Shown here piece after piece: positions 26,198 to 42,121 of a stretch of 64,000 bases of DNA. The translations under genes were made by a program, and so were the position numbers. The DNA is from Gammaproteobacteria bacterium. GTDB lineage: Bacteria; Pseudomonadota; Gammaproteobacteria; Pseudomonadales; Azotimanducaceae. The DNA lies in assembly GCA_007694905.1 (NCBI GenBank), contig REEU01000142.1, positions 1 through 64,000 on the forward strand. Reading direction: 5' to 3'. Position 1 is the stretch's first letter, and every line of letters starts with the position of its first letter. The notes below the pieces were generated by a model, which had not been told where the DNA came from, searched no databases, and saw nothing but the letters and a program-made list of their open reading frames with translations.

Positions 26198-27640
26198 ATG
26201 CAGGCTCCGGTACGGCGCTTGTCGCTGGGCACGATGGCGGCGTTCGGTTTCGGGCAGACGGCCGAGGGCGTCAAGAACGCTGCTTTCAACACTTTCGTGC
26301 TGTTCTATTACCAGCAGGTGGTCGGCGTGTCCGGCACTCTGACCGGTATCGCCCTGGCCATTGCACTGTGCTTCGACGCGGTCACGGATCCGCTGGCGGG
26401 TGCGATTTCCGACAAGACGCGCACCCGCTGGGGGCGGCGCCATCCTTTCATGCTGGCAGCAGTCATTCCGCTGACGTTCTCATTCTACTTCCTGTTCAAT
26501 CCGCCGGGCGGCCTCTCCGAATTCGGCAGTTTCCTGTGGCTGGCGGCGTTCGCGGTGCTGGTGCGCGGCTCGCTGACCTTCTATCACATCCCGCACCTGG
26601 CGCTGGGCGCCGAAATGGCCATGGACTACAACCAGCGCTCGACGCTGTTCGCGTTCAGCACCCTGTTCAGCCTCGCCGGTGGCGCCATGACCGGTTTCCT
26701 CGCCTATCTTCTGTTCTTCCCCACGACTCCCGAGTACTCCCCCGGGCTGCTGAACCCCGACGGCTACGTCAGCTTCGGCGTCACGTTCGGCATCGTCATG
26801 GCCCTGGCCATCGTCGGCTGCGCCTTCGGTACCCGCAAGGAGATCCCGCACCTCAGGCAACCGGTCACCATCGTGCCTTTCGGGGTGCTACGCATGGTGA
26901 GAGAAGTCATGGAGGCATTCCGGAACCGATCCTTCCGGGCGCTCTTCTTCGGCATGCTGCTCGGCACCATGATCATCAGCGTCGAGGCCGTGTTGAGCCC
27001 GTTCATGGGTCTGCATTTTTGGGAGTTCACCACCGAGCAGCTCGCGCTGATTCCACCCATTGCCCTCGTCGGCATGCTGCTCAGTCTGCCGTTAACGCCG
27101 GTGGTCACGCGGCTCCTCGACAAGAAACTCGCCGTGATCATTCCCGCAGCGATCGCGATCGTCAACGGCAACGTCCTGATCGTCCTGCGCCTGCTCGACG
27201 TGCCCTGGTTTCCGACCAACGAATCACCCTGGATGCTGCCGCTGGTGATGCTGACGGTGTTCATCACCACCACCGTCGCGCCGGTGATCTTCACGAGCAT
27301 CAACTCCATGTTCGCGGACATTGCGGACGAGCATGAACTGGAGACCGGCGAAAGGCGTGAGGGCATCATCTACGCCGCGCGTTCGTTCTGTCTGAAGGCT
27401 ACGGGCGCGGTCGGCGTGATGCTCGGCGGCTTCATGCTCGACATCATCGCCTTCCCTCGGGGTGCGCCGGTGGGCAGCGTCGACCCCGACACCATCTGGC
27501 AGCTTGGCTTCGTGCAGGGTCCGGCGACGTCACTGTTCAGTTTCTGCGGCCTGATCCTGTATGCACGTTACCGCCTCAACCGGGCGCGCCACGCGGAGAT
27601 TCTGGAGGAACTCGAACGGCGTCGTGAAGCGGCGGGATGA
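26198..27640 (+). CDS. GPH family sugar:cation symporter
   Basis: A 480-residue membrane protein with about 12 hydrophobic segments, of the glycoside-pentoside-hexuronide (MFS_2) family. The family's early loop is present as DAVTDPLAGAISDKTRTRWGRRHPFM, with Asp and Arg residues known to shape cation coupling in MelB. An HELETGERREGIIYAA segment in the second half is also typical. A GGGGAGAAAG ribosome-binding site precedes the ATG. Members carry melibiose, glucuronides, xylosides and other substrates. No sugar enzyme adjoins; the beta-galactosidase lies 9 kb away on the other strand, so a link is possible but not shown. Confidence 0.9.
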   Translation: MQAPVRRLSLGTMAAFGFGQTAEGVKNAAFNTFVLFYYQQVVGVSGTLTGIALAIALCFDAVTDPLAGAISDKTRTRWGRRHPFMLAAVIPLTFSFYFLFNPPGGLSEFGSFLWLAAFAVLVRGSLTFYHIPHLALGAEMAMDYNQRSTLFAFSTLFSLAGGAMTGFLAYLLFFPTTPEYSPGLLNPDGYVSFGVTFGIVMALAIVGCAFGTRKEIPHLRQPVTIVPFGVLRMVREVMEAFRNRSFRALFFGMLLGTMIISVEAVLSPFMGLHFWEFTTEQLALIPPIALVGMLLSLPLTPVVTRLLDKKLAVIIPAAIAIVNGNVLIVLRLLDVPWFPTNESPWMLPLVMLTVFITTTVAPVIFTSINSMFADIADEHELETGERREGIIYAARSFCLKATGAVGVMLGGFMLDIIAFPRGAPVGSVDPDTIWQLGFVQGPATSLFSFCGLILYARYRLNRARHAEILEELERRREAAG

Positions 27641-29165: not shown

Positions 29166-29675
29166 ATGACCTGCCCGCCCTGGCCACGCGCCACCACGCT
29201 TCTGCTTGCGCTCGTTCTGCTCGCCTGCCTGCCCGCCATCGTCCGCGCCGACGCGGCCCATGAAGCGGCTGCCGAAGAACTGCTTCGACTCATCCAGGTG
29301 GACCGCGGACTCTCACCCATGGCAGCCCGCATGCGCCAGAGCACGCTGCAGCAGATCCGCGCCCAGGACGTGGCAGTCGGCGAGGAGCCCGTCGCGGCAC
29401 CCTACCTGGCCCGCATAGGCGAACTGATCGAGCAGACGCTGAGCTGGGAACGGCTGCGCCCGGAATTCCTCGAGATCTATACTCAAACCTTCACCCGCGA
29501 AGAACTCGTCGCGCTGAACACGTTCTTCAGATCATCCGTCGGCGGTAAGTATCTGGCCAACGTCAGCAGCCTGAACCAGCAGGCCACCGAGGTTGTCCGC
29601 CGCCACGCCATGGCGACTGCTCCTGAGGTTCGCGCGATCACCGATGAGATGCGCGCCGCCCTCGACGGCAACTGA
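29166..29675 (+). CDS. Exported DUF2059 protein
   Basis: A 169-residue protein with a signal peptide (residues 1-28, ending PAIVRADA). The mature part is helical and carries the DUF2059 pattern: YTQTFTREELVALNTFFRSS followed by VGGKYLANVSSLNQQ. Members are periplasmic proteins of unknown function. It stands alone ahead of the TPP riboswitch, with no shared promoter evident. Confidence 0.88.
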   Translation: MTCPPWPRATTLLLALVLLACLPAIVRADAAHEAAAEELLRLIQVDRGLSPMAARMRQSTLQQIRAQDVAVGEEPVAAPYLARIGELIEQTLSWERLRPEFLEIYTQTFTREELVALNTFFRSSVGGKYLANVSSLNQQATEVVRRHAMATAPEVRAITDEMRAALDGN

Positions 29676-29705
29676 ACGCGAACGCGTGGCCGGAACGCCT
29701 TGAAA

Positions 29706-29735
29706 TTGCTCCCGCGACCGTTCCGATGCTATAAA
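29706..29735 (+). promoter_or_regulatory. Promoter of the thiamine-regulated receptor
   Basis: TTGCTC (29706-29711), an 18-base spacer and TATAAA (29730-29735), with TG one base upstream of the -10 hexamer (extended -10). The transcript would start near 29742, just before the riboswitch P1 stem at 29747. The position agrees well with a riboswitch leader. Confidence 0.6.
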
Positions 29736-29746
29736 GCCGCGCGACA

Positions 29747-29849
29747 ACCTAAGGGGAGGCCTTCTGGCGACAGCCACCAGGCCTGAGACATCCGGTGAGC
29801 GGATGGACCCTTCGAACCTGATCCGGTTAGCACCGGCGTAGGGATAGGT
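29747..29849 (+). promoter_or_regulatory. TPP riboswitch (thi-box)
   Basis: The consensus blocks of the thiamine pyrophosphate aptamer are all present: GGGG early (29753-29756), CTGAGA at 29783-29788, then ACCCTTCGAACCTGATC at 29807-29823, and GGTTAGCACCGG followed by CGTAGGGA at 29844. The ends ACCT (29747-29750) and AGGT (29846-29849) pair as P1. The variable P3 region (TCCGGTGAGCGGATG) is short. It lies 77 bases upstream of a TonB-dependent receptor start, so that receptor is under thiamine control, and high TPP should reduce its production. Confidence 0.95.
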
Positions 29850-29903
29850 CGAGTCCGGGACCACCCCGCCTCTTCTCTTTGCCTTCCGCGCCAGGATTCC
29901 GGG

Positions 29904-29921
29904 TCTCCTGCCTCCAGGAGA
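29904..29921 (+). promoter_or_regulatory. Hairpin masking the Shine-Dalgarno of the TPP-regulated receptor
   Basis: TCTCCTG-CCTC-CAGGAGA is a perfect 7-bp stem with a 4-base loop. Its 3' arm contains AGGAG, six bases before the ATG at 29927. This fits a translational expression platform in which ligand-bound riboswitch allows the masking hairpin and ligand-free RNA opens it. The alternative pairing partner (anti-sequester) is not obvious by eye. The sequence is direct; the mechanism is inferred. Confidence 0.65.
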
Positions 29922-29926
29922 AACCG

Positions 29927-32008
29927 ATGGCACGCTCGATTCCCATGCTCCGCCAAGTTGCTGCAACCTCGCTGCTAGCGACCGTCAGCTTCACCCACGC
30001 TGCCAGTGTCGATGAAATCGTCGTCAAGGGCGACCTGCGCGAGAGTCGCCTGCTCGAGCTTCCGGTGTCCGTCACCGTGATCGACGAAAGCGTCATCAGA
30101 AGCAGAAGCGCGACCCACCTCGAGGACGTGCTGAACATCGCGCCGAACGTGAATTTTTCCTCCGGGGCGTCCCGCAGCCGCTTCTTCCAGATCCGGGGCA
30201 TCGGCGAACGAGGCCAGTTCGTCGAACCGCTGAACCCCTCCGTGGGCGTCATCCTCGACGGCGTCGATCTCACCGGCGCGGCGACCGCTGCCACCTTGTT
30301 CGACGTGGATCAGGTCGAGATCTTCCGCGGCCCCCAGGGCACCCGTTACGGCGCCAATGCCCATGCGGGCCTGATCGTGCTGCAGAGTCGCGCGCCCACC
30401 TTCGAACCCGAGGCCCGCGTCGAGGCCGACATCGGCAACTTCGGTACCCGGCGCCTCGCCGCTGCCGTGTCCGGCCCTCTCGCCGGTGAACGTCTCGCAG
30501 GACGGTTGGCAGCCCAGCACTATCAGAGCGACGGTTTCATGAAGAACCGCTTTCTCGACCGGGACGACACCGAGGAGAAGGACGAACTGACCCTGCGCGG
30601 CCGGCTGCAGTGGCTGGCCAGCGACGCCGTGCTCGTCGACCTCTCGCTGGCACGCATCGAGATCGACAACGGCTACGACTCGTTCACCCTCGAAAACTCC
30701 CGCGACACGCTCACCGACGAACCCGGGTTCGATCGTCAGGACACCACCCTGGCATCCGCTCGCGTGGAGATCGCCACCACTGCTGGCTTCGGCATCGAGG
30801 GCACGGCAGCCATCGCCTGGTCGGACATCGACTACGGCTTCGACGAGGACTGGACTTTCGCCGGGTTTCATCCCGCCGGCTTCCAGTCCTTCGACCGCTA
30901 TCAGCGCGATCGCGACACGCGATCGCTTGAACTGCGGCTGGTGTCGGACCCGTCGGGTCGGCTGTTCGACGGTCGCAGCGACTGGATCCTGGGCGCCTAT
31001 CATCACCGCAACGAGGAGGACCTGGAACGGATCCGCACCAGCCCCACCCGGGTGCGCACCTTCGCAAGCGAGTTCGAGACACGACGCACCTCCCTGTTCG
31101 GCCAGCTGGATACGACGATCAGCGATCGGGTGAACCTGACCACCGGCCTGCGCTATGAACGACGCAGGTCGGACTACGAGGACTCCGCGGCGGTTAAGTT
31201 CTCCCCCAGCGAGCATCTGTGGGGCGGACGCATAGGCCTGGAGTTGCTCACCAACCAGGACACGCTCGTGTACGCCACGGTTTCCCGAGGCTACAAGGCC
31301 GGCGGCTTCAACACCGACGGATCACTCGATGCGGATCTGCGCCTGTACGACAGCGAGTACGTCTGGAACTACGAGATCGGCGTGAAGTCGAGCCAGCTCG
31401 ACGGTGCCCTGTCCACGCGTCTGTCGGTGTTTTACATGGACCGCCGCGACCAGCAGGTCGGCACTTCACTGGTGCGTCCGCGAGAAGACGGCTCCAGCGA
31501 GTTCATCGCGTTCGTCGGCAATGCCGCCGAGGGCCGCAACTACGGCCTGGAACTGGAACTGGACTGGGCCGCGAGCGAAAGGCTGCGCCTTTCCGGCAGC
31601 CTGGGCCTGCTGCGGACCAAGTTCCGCGACTTCGTCAATTCCGCCGGTGACGATCTCGACGGCCGCGATCAGCCTCACGCGCCCCGCTACCAGTTTCACC
31701 TGGCCGCAGACTACCGCTTCGACGCCGGCTTCTACGTCCGCCTGGAGGCGGAAGGACGCGATGACTTCTTCTTCTCTGGCTCCCATCAGGAGAAGTCCAG
31801 CAGCTACGAGTTGCTCAGTGCACGGGCCGGTTGGCAGGGCGAGCGCGTGGAGATCGCGCTCTGGGGCCGCAATCTGACTGACAAGGATTACGAGGTGCGC
31901 GGCTTCGGCGGCTTCGGCAACGATCCTCGGGATGGCTATGCACCCGGCCGCTACACCCAGTTCGGCGCACCGCGGACCCTGGGGGTCAGCGCCAGCATGA
32001 CGTTCTGA
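29927..32008 (+). CDS. TonB-dependent outer-membrane receptor, probably for thiamine or a precursor
   Basis: A 693-residue receptor. A signal peptide (residues 1-25, ending THA) leads to a plug domain starting VDEIVVKGDLRES with RIRG-like FFQIRGIGERGQF, VEIFRGPQGTRYGANAHAGL and the plug end. A long beta-barrel follows, and the last residues GVSASMTF end in Phe as barrel proteins do for BAM recognition. The TPP riboswitch and masked ribosome-binding site upstream are strong evidence that it imports thiamine, its phosphates or a precursor. The sequence itself resembles many TonB receptors of unspecified ligand. No inner-membrane thiamine permease adjoins. Confidence 0.9.
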   Translation: MARSIPMLRQVAATSLLATVSFTHAASVDEIVVKGDLRESRLLELPVSVTVIDESVIRSRSATHLEDVLNIAPNVNFSSGASRSRFFQIRGIGERGQFVEPLNPSVGVILDGVDLTGAATAATLFDVDQVEIFRGPQGTRYGANAHAGLIVLQSRAPTFEPEARVEADIGNFGTRRLAAAVSGPLAGERLAGRLAAQHYQSDGFMKNRFLDRDDTEEKDELTLRGRLQWLASDAVLVDLSLARIEIDNGYDSFTLENSRDTLTDEPGFDRQDTTLASARVEIATTAGFGIEGTAAIAWSDIDYGFDEDWTFAGFHPAGFQSFDRYQRDRDTRSLELRLVSDPSGRLFDGRSDWILGAYHHRNEEDLERIRTSPTRVRTFASEFETRRTSLFGQLDTTISDRVNLTTGLRYERRRSDYEDSAAVKFSPSEHLWGGRIGLELLTNQDTLVYATVSRGYKAGGFNTDGSLDADLRLYDSEYVWNYEIGVKSSQLDGALSTRLSVFYMDRRDQQVGTSLVRPREDGSSEFIAFVGNAAEGRNYGLELELDWAASERLRLSGSLGLLRTKFRDFVNSAGDDLDGRDQPHAPRYQFHLAADYRFDAGFYVRLEAEGRDDFFFSGSHQEKSSSYELLSARAGWQGERVEIALWGRNLTDKDYEVRGFGGFGNDPRDGYAPGRYTQFGAPRTLGVSASMTF

Positions 32009-34387: not shown

Positions 34388-35950
34388 TCAGGAACTGCAG
34401 GACAGGATGGAGCAGCCGGCCTTGTGCCGTGCCCATTCGGGGCGACGCTCTGCCAGATCAGCATGTTCCGATTGCTCGTCATAGGGCCTGCGCAGCACGT
34501 CGAGCAACCGTGCGATCGGGGCCGTGTCGCCCTCTTCCGCCGCATCGATCGCCTGTTGGGCGAGATAGTTGCGCAGGACGAACCTGGGATTGGCGCGATT
34601 CATGCGCGCTTTGCGCTGCTCCTCGCTGACGCCTTGCGCAGCCAGGGCTGCCGCATAGCGGTCGAGCCAGCCGAGCACCTCGGCCGCCGGCGGCGCAGCC
34701 GAGTAGTAGGCGTCCGCCAGCGGTTCGAGCCGGCTGGCCGCAGGCGCGTCCGCCGCCAGCGAAACCTGGGCCAGATTGCGGAAGAATAATGTCATGTCGG
34801 TCTCGACCCGCTGCAGCAGCGTGAACAGATCCGAGACCAGGGCGTCGTCGTCGAGATGGGTCAGACCGAGCTTCGCTGCCAGCATGCCCGGAAACGTCGA
34901 CTCGTAGGTGGCCCGATAGGCGTCGATGCCGGCCTCGATCCCGGCTTCACTGAGCCCCAGCGGGGCAAGCGCCTGACCGAGCCGGGCAAGGTTCCACATG
35001 GCGATGGCGGGTTGATTGCCGAAACAGTAGCGCTTGCCAGGAAGGTCGGTGGTGTTCGGCGTCCAGTCGGGCTCGAAGCCTTCGAGCCAGCCATAGGGGC
35101 CGTAGTCAATGGTCAGGCCCAACAGCGACATGTTGTCCGTGTTCATGACGCCATGAACGAAGCCGACCCGCATCCAGTGCGCCACCATGACCGCCGTCCG
35201 CCGACAGACGTCCGCAAACCAGAGGGCATGGGCCTCGGGTCTGGGACCGTCGCATTCCGGATACAATTCGGTGAGCACATGCTCGGCCAGCCGTTCGAGC
35301 AGCGCATGATCACCCCGGAGAGCCGGCAGCTCGAGATTGCCGAAACGGAGGAAGGAAGGCGCCACCCGGCACACGATGGCACCCGGCTCAGGGCGCGGAT
35401 GCCCATCGTAAAACATGTCGCGCACCACGTTTTCACCGGTAGTGACGAGGCTCAGGGCGCGGGTGGTGGGCACGCCGAGATGGTGCATAGCCTCGCTGCA
35501 GAGAAACTCGCGAACGGACGAGCGCAGGACGGCGCGACCATCGGCCATTCGCGAATACGGCGTGGGGCCCGCGCCCTTGAGCTGCAGCTCCCAGCGACCA
35601 CCCTCGGGTGCGATGAGCTCGCCGAGATTGATCGCGCGACCATCGCCGAGCTGACCGGCCCAGTTACCGAACTGATGCCCGCCATAGCAGGCGGCGAAGG
35701 GGGCCATGCCCGGAAGCAGGCGATTGCCCGCAAGGACTGCGGCAACGGCAGCAGGATCATCCGGTGCGGCGAGGCCGAGCAAATCGGCGCAATCCTGCGA
35801 CCAAGCGAGCAGGCGGGGAGCGGCCACCGGAGTCGGGCGGACTCGGCTGAAGCAGACGCCTTGCACCTGTCGTGGGCGATGGTCGGTCTCGGCCTCGCCA
35901 GGCAGAGACGACACCAGTCGCTGTTCGAATGTGGCTTCAGTCAGTTGCAC
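34388..35950 (-). CDS. selO: SelO protein adenylyltransferase (UPF0061/YdiU)
   Basis: A 520-residue pseudokinase-fold enzyme that AMPylates proteins. Motifs are YGGHQFGNWAGQLGDGRAIN, ELQLKGAGPTPYSRMADGRA (nucleotide loop), HGVMNTDNMSLLGLTIDYGP (catalytic and metal Asp/Asn) and the C-terminus GCSILSCSS. The C-terminal Cys pair stands where animal SelO has selenocysteine, so no recoding is needed here. The GTG start at 35950 has GGAG five bases upstream. In E. coli SelO protects against oxidative stress by AMPylating redox proteins; the same is likely here. Confidence 0.95.
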   Translation of the reverse strand: MQLTEATFEQRLVSSLPGEAETDHRPRQVQGVCFSRVRPTPVAAPRLLAWSQDCADLLGLAAPDDPAAVAAVLAGNRLLPGMAPFAACYGGHQFGNWAGQLGDGRAINLGELIAPEGGRWELQLKGAGPTPYSRMADGRAVLRSSVREFLCSEAMHHLGVPTTRALSLVTTGENVVRDMFYDGHPRPEPGAIVCRVAPSFLRFGNLELPALRGDHALLERLAEHVLTELYPECDGPRPEAHALWFADVCRRTAVMVAHWMRVGFVHGVMNTDNMSLLGLTIDYGPYGWLEGFEPDWTPNTTDLPGKRYCFGNQPAIAMWNLARLGQALAPLGLSEAGIEAGIDAYRATYESTFPGMLAAKLGLTHLDDDALVSDLFTLLQRVETDMTLFFRNLAQVSLAADAPAASRLEPLADAYYSAAPPAAEVLGWLDRYAAALAAQGVSEEQRKARMNRANPRFVLRNYLAQQAIDAAEEGDTAPIARLLDVLRRPYDEQSEHADLAERRPEWARHKAGCSILSCSS

Positions 35951-36404: not shown

Positions 36405-39716
<3,312 letters not shown>

Positions 39717-39793: not shown

Positions 39794-42121
39794 CTACCTG
39801 CGCCTGGCCTTGGCGAAGGCCGCAGCCAGGGCGCCGTCCGCCGCGGGGACCTTGGCCGGCTCGCGGTTGCGGCCGGGCGCCTTGTCCCCAGACCGCCGTG
39901 CCCCGCCACCACCGCCCTCGCTGCGACGCTCGCCCGGCGTGTCGTCGAGACGCATGGACAGGGCAATGCGCTTGCGTGGCAGGTCCACGTCGAGAACCTT
40001 CACGCGCACGATGTCCCCGGCCTTCACCACCTCCCGCGGATCCTTTACGAACCGATCCGCCAGGGCGGACACATGGACGAGGCCGTCCTGGTGGACACCA
40101 AGATCGACAAAGGCACCGAACGCGACGACGTTGCTGATCACGCCCTCGAGGACCATGCCGGGCTGCAGATCCTTGATGTCCTCGACGCCATCGGCGAAGC
40201 GGGCGGTCCGAAACTCCGGGCGCGGATCGCGACCCGGCTTCTCGAGCTCGGCGAGGATGTCGCGCACCGTGGGCAGGCCGAAGCGATCATCCGTGTAGCG
40301 CTCGGGATTCAGTGACCGCAGAAAACTGCTGTCGCCGATGAGTGCCCTGAGTTCCCGCGAGGCGTCGCCCAGAATGCGCTTCACCACCGGGTAGGCCTCC
40401 GGGTGGACGGCCGAAGCATCGAGCGGGTCATCGCCGTCGCGGATGCGCAGGAACCCTGCACATTGTTCGAACGTCTTCTCCCCGAGACGAGGCACGCTCA
40501 GCAACTCCCGGCGGCGCCGGAAGGCGCCGTGGGCATCCCGATGGCTGACGATGTTCTCCGCCACCGCAGGACTGAGGCCGGCGACTCGCGCCAGCAGCGG
40601 AGCCGAGGCCGTATTGACCTCCACCCCCACCGCATTCACGCAATCCTCCACCCGAGCATCGAGGGCCCGTGCCAAGCGCGTCTGGTTGACGTCGTGCTGG
40701 TACTGGCCAACGCCGATGGACTTCGGCTCGATCTTGACCAGCTCAGCCAGCGGATCCTGCAGCCGGCGGGCGATGGAAATGGCCCCGCGCAAGCTCACGT
40801 CTACGTCCGGGAACTCCTTCGAGGCCAGCTCCGATGCCGAGTACACCGAGGCACCGGCCTCGCTGACGACCAGCTTCTCGACGCCGAGCTCCAGGTGCCG
40901 CTGCTTGAGATCCGCCGCAAGACGATCGGTTTCCCGGGAGGCCGTGCCATTGCCGATGGCGATCAGCTCCACAGCATGGGTGGCGCACAACGCGGCAAGG
41001 CGGGCGATGGCCGCATCTGCCTGGTTGCGCGGGGCGAAGGGATACACCGTGTCCGTGGCCAACAGCTTGCCGGTGGCGTCCACCACCGCGACCTTGACCC
41101 CGGTGCGCAGGCCGGGATCGAGGCCCATCACTGCCTTGGACCCTGCCGGTGCTGCCAGCATGAGATCAGTGAGATTGGCGCCGAAGATGCGGATGGCTTC
41201 CGCCTCGGCCGTCTCCCGTGCCCGCAGCATGAGATCAAGACCCAGGGTGACCAGCAGCTTGAAACGCCAGGCATGGCGGAACGTCTCGGCCAGCCACGGG
41301 TCGCCGGGACGGCCCTGGTCACGCCAGCCCACATGGCCAGCGATGCGGCCGATCGCCGCCGCCTGCCCGGCGTCGGCATCACCGTCGAGTACGGGCAGCA
41401 GGTCGAGGCCCAGAATGCCCTCGTTGCGTCCGCGCAGCAGCGCCAGCAGGCGGTGGGAGGGAATCTTGCGCAATGGCTCAGCGTGATCGAAGTAGTCGCG
41501 GTACTTCGCCCCCGCTTCCTCCTTCCCCGCGAGCACACGGGACTGCAGCTGACCCTGCTCCCAGAGCCACTCGCGCAGGGCGCCGACCAGACCGGCCTCT
41601 TCGGCGATGGCCTCGATGAGGATGGCCCGCGCACCGTCGAGGGCACTCTTGACGTCCTCGACGCCGCGCGCAGGGTCCACGAAAACGGCGGCGCGTTCCT
41701 CGGGCACCCGATCCGGGTGGTCTCTGAGATCGAAGGCCAGCGGCTCGAGCCCGGCCTCGCGGGCAATCTGGGCCTTGGTCCGGCGCTTGGGCTTGTAGGG
41801 CAGGTAAAGGTCTTCGAGCCGCGCCTTGGTGTCTGCAGCCTCGATGTCCGCGCGCAGGCCCGCCGTGAGTTTGCCCTGCTCATTAACGCTGGCCAGCACA
41901 CTGGCACGCCGGTCCTCGAGTTCCCGCAGGTAGCCGAGACGCTCCTCGAGGGCCCGCAGCTGGATGTCGTCGAGCCCCCCGGTGGCCTCTTTCCGATAGC
42001 GGGCGACGAAGGGTACGGTGGCGCCTCCGTCGAGCAACTCGACGGTAGCGGTCACCTGATCAGAGCGGGCACCGATGGCCTGGGCAATGGCATCGACAAT
42101 GCGGGTCTGGGTATCTGTCAT
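39794..42121 (-). CDS. tex: Tex transcription accessory protein
   Basis: A 775-residue protein with the full Tex layout: N-terminal helical domain ([38 protein letters not shown]), YqgF/RuvC-like domain ([20 protein letters not shown]), HhH domains ([28 protein letters not shown]) and a C-terminal S1 RNA-binding domain ([30 protein letters not shown]). Tex interacts with RNA polymerase and nucleic acids. A Gly/Arg-rich tail ([14 protein letters not shown]) follows the S1 domain and may add RNA contacts. No strong ribosome-binding site precedes the ATG. Confidence 0.96.

Follow-up and report, generated by a model that had tools for sequence, protein, structure and literature searches.

How is a TonB-dependent receptor gene behind a TPP riboswitch controlled, and what does the receptor bring into the cell? 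The question is raised by a locus in the window, the 64,000-nucleotide stretch of gammaproteobacterial DNA analysed here (contig REEU01000142.1, positions 1 to 64,000). The favoured reading, held at a probability of roughly 0.78 from sequence comparison, is that the riboswitch translationally represses a receptor importing vitamin B1 or its pyrimidine part. The features concerned are:

26198-27640 (+): MFS_2/GPH-type transporter gene upstream of the receptor, from Pfam
29706-29735 (+): probable promoter, read from the sequence, with a weak -35 (TTGCTC, 29706-29711), an 18-base spacer and an extended -10
29742-29861 (+): predicted TPP riboswitch aptamer, RF00059, from cmscan
29820-29826 (+): GATCCGG, the 5' strand of aptamer P4-P5, a candidate antisequestor from a contiguous-helix scan and a family-wide swap test
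29899-29905 (+): CCGGGTC, alternative partner of 29820-29826, overlapping the 5' arm of the Shine-Dalgarno (SD) hairpin
29904-29921 (+): SD-masking hairpin TCTCCTG-CCTC-CAGGAGA, from sequence and folding, extended by CGG 29900-29902 and CCG 29924-29926
29916-29920 (+): SD sequence AGGAG, six bases 5' of the ATG at 29927
29927-32008 (+): gene of a 693-aa TonB-dependent receptor, predicted omr1/OMthi type, from Pfam domains

A first-pass annotation of this DNA had recognized a TPP aptamer, and the Rfam covariance search it called for bears this out. The RF00059 match on the forward strand reaches 72.8 bits (E 2.1e-12; gathering threshold 54.3 bits), spans model positions 1-105, the full length, and is the sole above-threshold Rfam match in the window. 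By covariance model the element is a TPP riboswitch, and it would be expected to bind TPP. The extended -10 that had been placed just 5' of P1 reads TG-C-TATAAA (TGCTATAAA) at 29727-29735 (TG 29727-29728, TATAAA 29730-29735); the motif is present and its position is conserved in the family, but a consensus scan returns no two-hexamer promoter. A -10-like hexamer occurs 16-34 bases 5' of the AGGGG run of the aptamer in 44 of 67 distinct family upstream regions, against a mean of 7.8 and a maximum of 16 in 200 shuffles. Immediately 5' of the riboswitch the window encodes a DUF2059 protein (29166-29675), and at locus L004 this place is taken by a 169-aa frame whose start looks similar by eye.

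The receptor matches PF07715 (Plug, 65.8 bits) and PF00593 (beta-barrel, 125.3 bits), both over cut-off. Its N-terminus has a signal-peptide-like start followed by DEIVV (by eye), presumably a TonB-box-like motif. A protein-based scan of species genomes yields 68 receptor loci, comprising 61 close orthologues (36-92% identity), which span several gammaproteobacterial families, and 7 distant ones (24-26%). A TPP element lies 5' of the receptor in 60 of the 61 close orthologues, 59 by motif pattern and one (L033) by Rfam; at the remaining locus (L006) the contig begins inside the receptor gene. All ten close orthologue loci scanned with Rfam give a TPP match. None of the seven distant loci carries the motif by pattern, nor does the one scanned with Rfam (L064). 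In G197 (C1:588227-590323) the receptor match consists of two adjoining pieces within one 734-aa open frame, perhaps reflecting an insertion relative to the query.

A TonB-dependent receptor behind a TPP riboswitch is the arrangement of omr1 and OMthi, and the window receptor is accordingly placed, on sequence and gene order, as a putative vitamin B1 receptor of this type, a kind already known, although its gene context here is unusual. The earlier remark on how few TPP-linked receptors are known goes too far. The receptor omr1 is described as TonB-dependent and for potential B1 transport, with a TPP riboswitch nearby in SAR86 and Flavobacteriales (PMC10881298), and two other surveys list it among putative B1 transporters (PMC12442306, PMC10470507); deletion genetics are available for OMthi (BT2390) of Bacteroides thetaiotaomicron (PMC5613172). 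Thiamin and precursor transporters are among the common TPP riboswitch targets in another survey (PMC3766115). The companion remark that ligands are mostly untested agrees with PMC12442306, which describes omr1 specificity as unclear. The identity of the transporters for the B1 pyrimidines FAMP and AmMP is posed as an open question in PMC10470507.

Genes behind the receptor point in the same direction. At 15 of the 22 loci compared, the receptor is followed by a gene of PF04973 (PnuC/PnuT family), with Pfam confirmation in every case, and L011 has a PnuT-like frame there by eye. The six remaining loci are four of the window's own genus (L003-L006), L010, which reaches the contig end, and L023, where a PF04973 gene directly behind the receptor is absent. 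An APH-type kinase is found behind the receptor at all nine loci scanned; one of these matches the NCBIfam profile ThiK at 80.8 bits (cut-off 299), beneath a better GntI match, both sub-cut-off. The MFS_2/GPH-type gene upstream of the receptor was considered as an inner-membrane partner and is kept only as a weak candidate: it shares a contig with the receptor or its riboswitch in three of six genus genomes (G000, G001, G002; separate contigs in G003-G005), and it has many paralogues in the family. The MFS neighbour at L010 was rejected as its orthologue at 24% identity. Four of the six genus drafts have a contig that ends less than about 300 bases from the riboswitch or inside the receptor gene (G001:C81, G003:C317, G004:C152, G005:C18).

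The distribution of thiamine genes was followed in 38 related draft genomes, including the window's own (96.7% complete). ThiC is found in 10 and the receptor in 27, with no overlap; as the best 30 receptor candidates per genome were scored, absence of the receptor is less firm in the ThiC genomes G006 and G012. The ten ThiC genomes combine ThiC and ThiG without the receptor (PF04973 clear in one and a weak fragment in another; TenA in three). Another 22 genomes have the receptor and PF04973 in every case and lack ThiC; TenA occurs in one of them, and no ThiG match passes E 2e-5. In 7 of these 22 the distance from the receptor to the PF04973 gene behind it is at most about 1 kb, and in the other 15 the two genes are on different contigs. 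The PF04973 family also includes nicotinamide riboside transporters, and PnuT is the favoured identity because kinase profile matches occur nearby on the same contig in 17 of the 22 genomes. Exclusion between receptor and ThiC was dropped as a class-wide rule: at least 11 of 185 genomes across the class have the receptor (best 6 candidates per genome scored), and 5 of 10 receptor genomes outside the order carry ThiC.

The window's genus shows a third pattern. In its six draft genomes neither ThiC nor PF04973 is found (0/6 each), so the PnuT partner of the omr1/OMthi-with-PnuT arrangement has no match there, while a strong ThiG and TenA are found in all six (TenA of G003 as a partial match at a contig start). 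The receptor passes E 1e-80 in five; in the sixth, G001, with neither ThiC nor a scored receptor, the riboswitch, the hairpin and 38 initial receptor codons are present at a contig edge. Kinase matches are at background level only, with two of the six genomes at about 37 bits. In a quick tree the genus receptor branches amid its counterparts from PF04973 genomes, as sister to that of G015 (SH-aLRT 97; the G015 row is of odd composition). From this nesting, the receptor probably derives from a thiamine-uptake setting that preceded the loss of PnuT.

The host's own pathway is consistent with a need for one half of the vitamin. The genome contains two TPP elements, one in the receptor leader and one in the leader of a thi operon (L071:3554-3672, contig C89 11553-11671), the latter scoring 53.3 bits, just under the gathering score. 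The operon reads thiD-thiE-thiO-thiS-thiG-(thiE/tenI-like)-tenA, without thiC; thiS is assigned by sequence only, and tenA is over the Pfam cut-off and just under that of NCBIfam. The TenA aligns with Bacillus subtilis TenA through a PCxWxY stretch, which we take to mark the cysteine type. TenA_C is described as converting AmMP to HMP (PMC10470507). Absence of ThiC from the six drafts with ThiG in all of them, and ThiE in the host genome, is the gene pattern of an HMP auxotroph, and a genus so equipped should therefore need pyrimidine from outside. As far as its genes tell, the host seems to make thiazole and to join the halves, and seems unable to make the pyrimidine half. Thiazole would come via ThiO, ThiS and ThiG, the halves would be joined by ThiD and ThiE, and the receptor would be the likely outer-membrane door for the pyrimidine, arriving as thiamine, HMP or AmMP, a thiamine breakdown product for which TenA is present. 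ThiC-less cells with ThiG and ThiE are likewise described in Pelagibacterales, where in one cluster thiV stands beside a TPP riboswitch and tenA; ThiV is described there as a pyrimidine vitamer transporter and, unlike the window receptor, not as a TonB-dependent receptor (PMC10881298). The initial assignment of the receptor as a gene for uptake of thiamine or a precursor thus draws comparative support from its TPP element and from the PnuT-family and kinase neighbours in relatives, the ligand itself being deduced from this setting.

Molecules of the size of HMP and thiamine can pass through porins, so that a receptor is not strictly needed for either. Which of them the genus receptor would carry is weighed as follows. 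That intact thiamine is its main ligand, as in the PnuT-linked relatives, with other inner-membrane transport and phosphorylation proteins serving in the genus, has a chance a little short of even. The position of the receptor in the tree fits this, as does PF04973 in 22/22 of the other receptor genomes of the 38, and OMthi supports growth of Bacteroides on low thiamine (PMC5613172); on the other hand, the genus has no PF04973 match and only background-level kinase matches, and import of the intact vitamin would make needless the thiazole synthesis and TenA that all six genomes keep. It is a more doubtful proposal that pyrimidine is the ligand. By this account, offered tentatively, the receptor would have taken on, wholly or as an added role, the import of B1 pyrimidines (HMP/AmMP) across the outer membrane after loss of PnuT and ThiC, under a TPP switch with a P4-P5 antisequestor. 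If true, a pyrimidine vitamer would have an energised way in through the outer membrane. The genus, with receptor, ThiG and TenA and no match to ThiC or PnuT, makes the ligand question directly testable in one background.

A probable mode of control of the gene can be read from the leader. The SD hairpin had been annotated as a perfect 7-bp stem hiding AGGAG six bases before the ATG, and so it is: TCTCCTG (29904-29910) pairs exactly with CAGGAGA (29915-29921) across a CCTC loop (29911-29914), and the predicted pairing of the SD is 1.00, where 50 shuffled sequences average 0.40. In all, 81 leaders were extracted, some loci being one genome under two names, and the 66 distinct leaders of at least 30 bases were folded. 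Their SD pairing probability averages 0.885 versus 0.51 in dinucleotide shuffles and exceeds 0.8 in 48 of the 66. The hairpin stays at the SD although its stem sequence differs between lineages, distant relatives included, and this constancy of position with varying sequence is the strongest argument for its having a function. An SD held in a sequestering hairpin that is conserved among orthologues is the arrangement of a translational OFF switch, and the receptor gene is probably under such a TPP-responsive switch, its direction deduced from the fold. The earlier proposal of control at translation is therefore supported by comparison as far as masking goes, and the switching itself is extrapolated from it.

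A switch also requires a strand that opens the hairpin (sequestor/antisequestor logic in general is treated in PMC2258182). The helix formed by 29820-29826 with 29899-29905 has seven contiguous pairs, one of them G-U, and a score of 18; in the window it is not exceptional alone (p=0.147) and reaches p=0.037 when its place in the SD arm is included. In 50 of 65 leaders the best contiguous P4-P5/leader helix shares bases with the 5' arm of the SD hairpin; alone it has p<0.05 in 29 of the 65, and for 38 of the 50 arm-overlapping leaders p<0.05 is obtained for a helix of the given score lying in the arm. The pairing sequences vary by lineage: the window type has GATCCGG/CCGGGTC, many Rheinheimera and Arsukibacterium have GGATTATACCGGC/GCTGGTGTGATCT, and Alishewanella has GGATCATAC/GTGTGATCC. 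In the swap test, arms paired with their own aptamer score 16.84 versus 13.07 with permuted aptamer types, and one of 5000 permutations is as good. The test covers 51 distinct pairs in which the arm could be defined, and related sequences among them inflate its significance; in 16 of 22 types the own pairing outscores the others. RNAduplex with shuffles gives gapped duplexes that are strong in Rheinheimera-type leaders, and for the window 0.33 of shuffles are as good. An antisequestor in which the arm pairs with the CUGAGA box was also considered and was dropped, since both the contiguous-helix scan and the folds that several relatives adopt with an open SD favour P4-P5. The P4-P5 strand is a candidate antisequestor in many relatives and a weak one in the window itself. 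The collected leaders allow the coupling between TPP aptamers and SD hairpins to be studied by comparison.

Under the favoured translational switch, the aptamer would fold at high TPP and leave the strand at about 29899-29910 free, the SD hairpin would close and the receptor would not be made. At low TPP the P4-P5 strand would hold part of the downstream strand, most likely co-transcriptionally, so that the SD would be open and the receptor made. In the window, 14.0 kcal/mol is needed to open the SD hairpin, and the P4-P5/leader pairing is absent from the best fold with an open SD; because of this, the antisequestor proposed there must act kinetically or be wrong. If based on P4-P5, the switch in the window is likely set during RNA synthesis. 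The same opening cost would suit a hairpin that constitutively keeps translation low while the riboswitch acts mainly otherwise, e.g., by Rho-dependent loss of the message, and in Escherichia coli the mRNA levels of thiM, thiC and tbpA also change (PMC11487190). This alternative is improbable, as the hairpin keeps its position at the SD across lineages despite sequence change and its 5' arm fits its own aptamer better than permuted ones, kinship inflating that result. A receptor for an unrelated ligand (an iron chelator or a sugar) beside an accidental TPP element is very improbable: the closest NCBIfam profile is a TonB siderophore subfamily (205.9 bits, under the 223.5 cut-off) and, among proteins of solved structure, the pesticin receptor is closest in sequence, but the TPP element accompanies nearly all close orthologues in several families and PnuT-family and kinase genes follow many of them.

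The translational switch has precedents. In tbpA (thiB) and thiM of E. coli the SD is sequestered with TPP and an aptamer strand is re-paired without it (PMC11487190, PMC3280964). The K-12 thiM leader (L139) has, as computed here, an 8-bp TGATCTGG/CCAGGTCA complementarity of aptamer P4-P5 to leader, like the window, whereas tbpA re-pairs P1 (anti-P1, PMC11487190; GGCGAAGGG/TCCTTTGCC as computed) and the window candidate is the GATCCGG of P4-P5. The principle is therefore not new, given complementarity of the same kind in thiM and a P1-side version in thiB. A search of the open-licence literature turned up neither a TonB-dependent receptor reported to take HMP nor a reported P4-P5 antisequestor.

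Among receptors, OMthi is like the window family a TPP-riboswitch-linked TonB-dependent receptor with a PnuT-family partner, found here in the relatives. It belongs to another phylum and its host has ThiC and PnuT, whereas the window's genus has neither; in that host, the transport operons are described as without significant expression change with thiamine (the comparison is by description; PMC5613172). Unlike the omr1 setting, the genus lacks PF04973 and keeps thiazole synthesis, and the likeness to omr1 is by description, not sequence.

Farther downstream, the window encodes a SelO protein adenylyltransferase with cysteines near its C terminus (34388-35950, minus strand) and, on the same strand, a large GH2 beta-galactosidase adjoining Tex (36405-39716 and 39794-42121).
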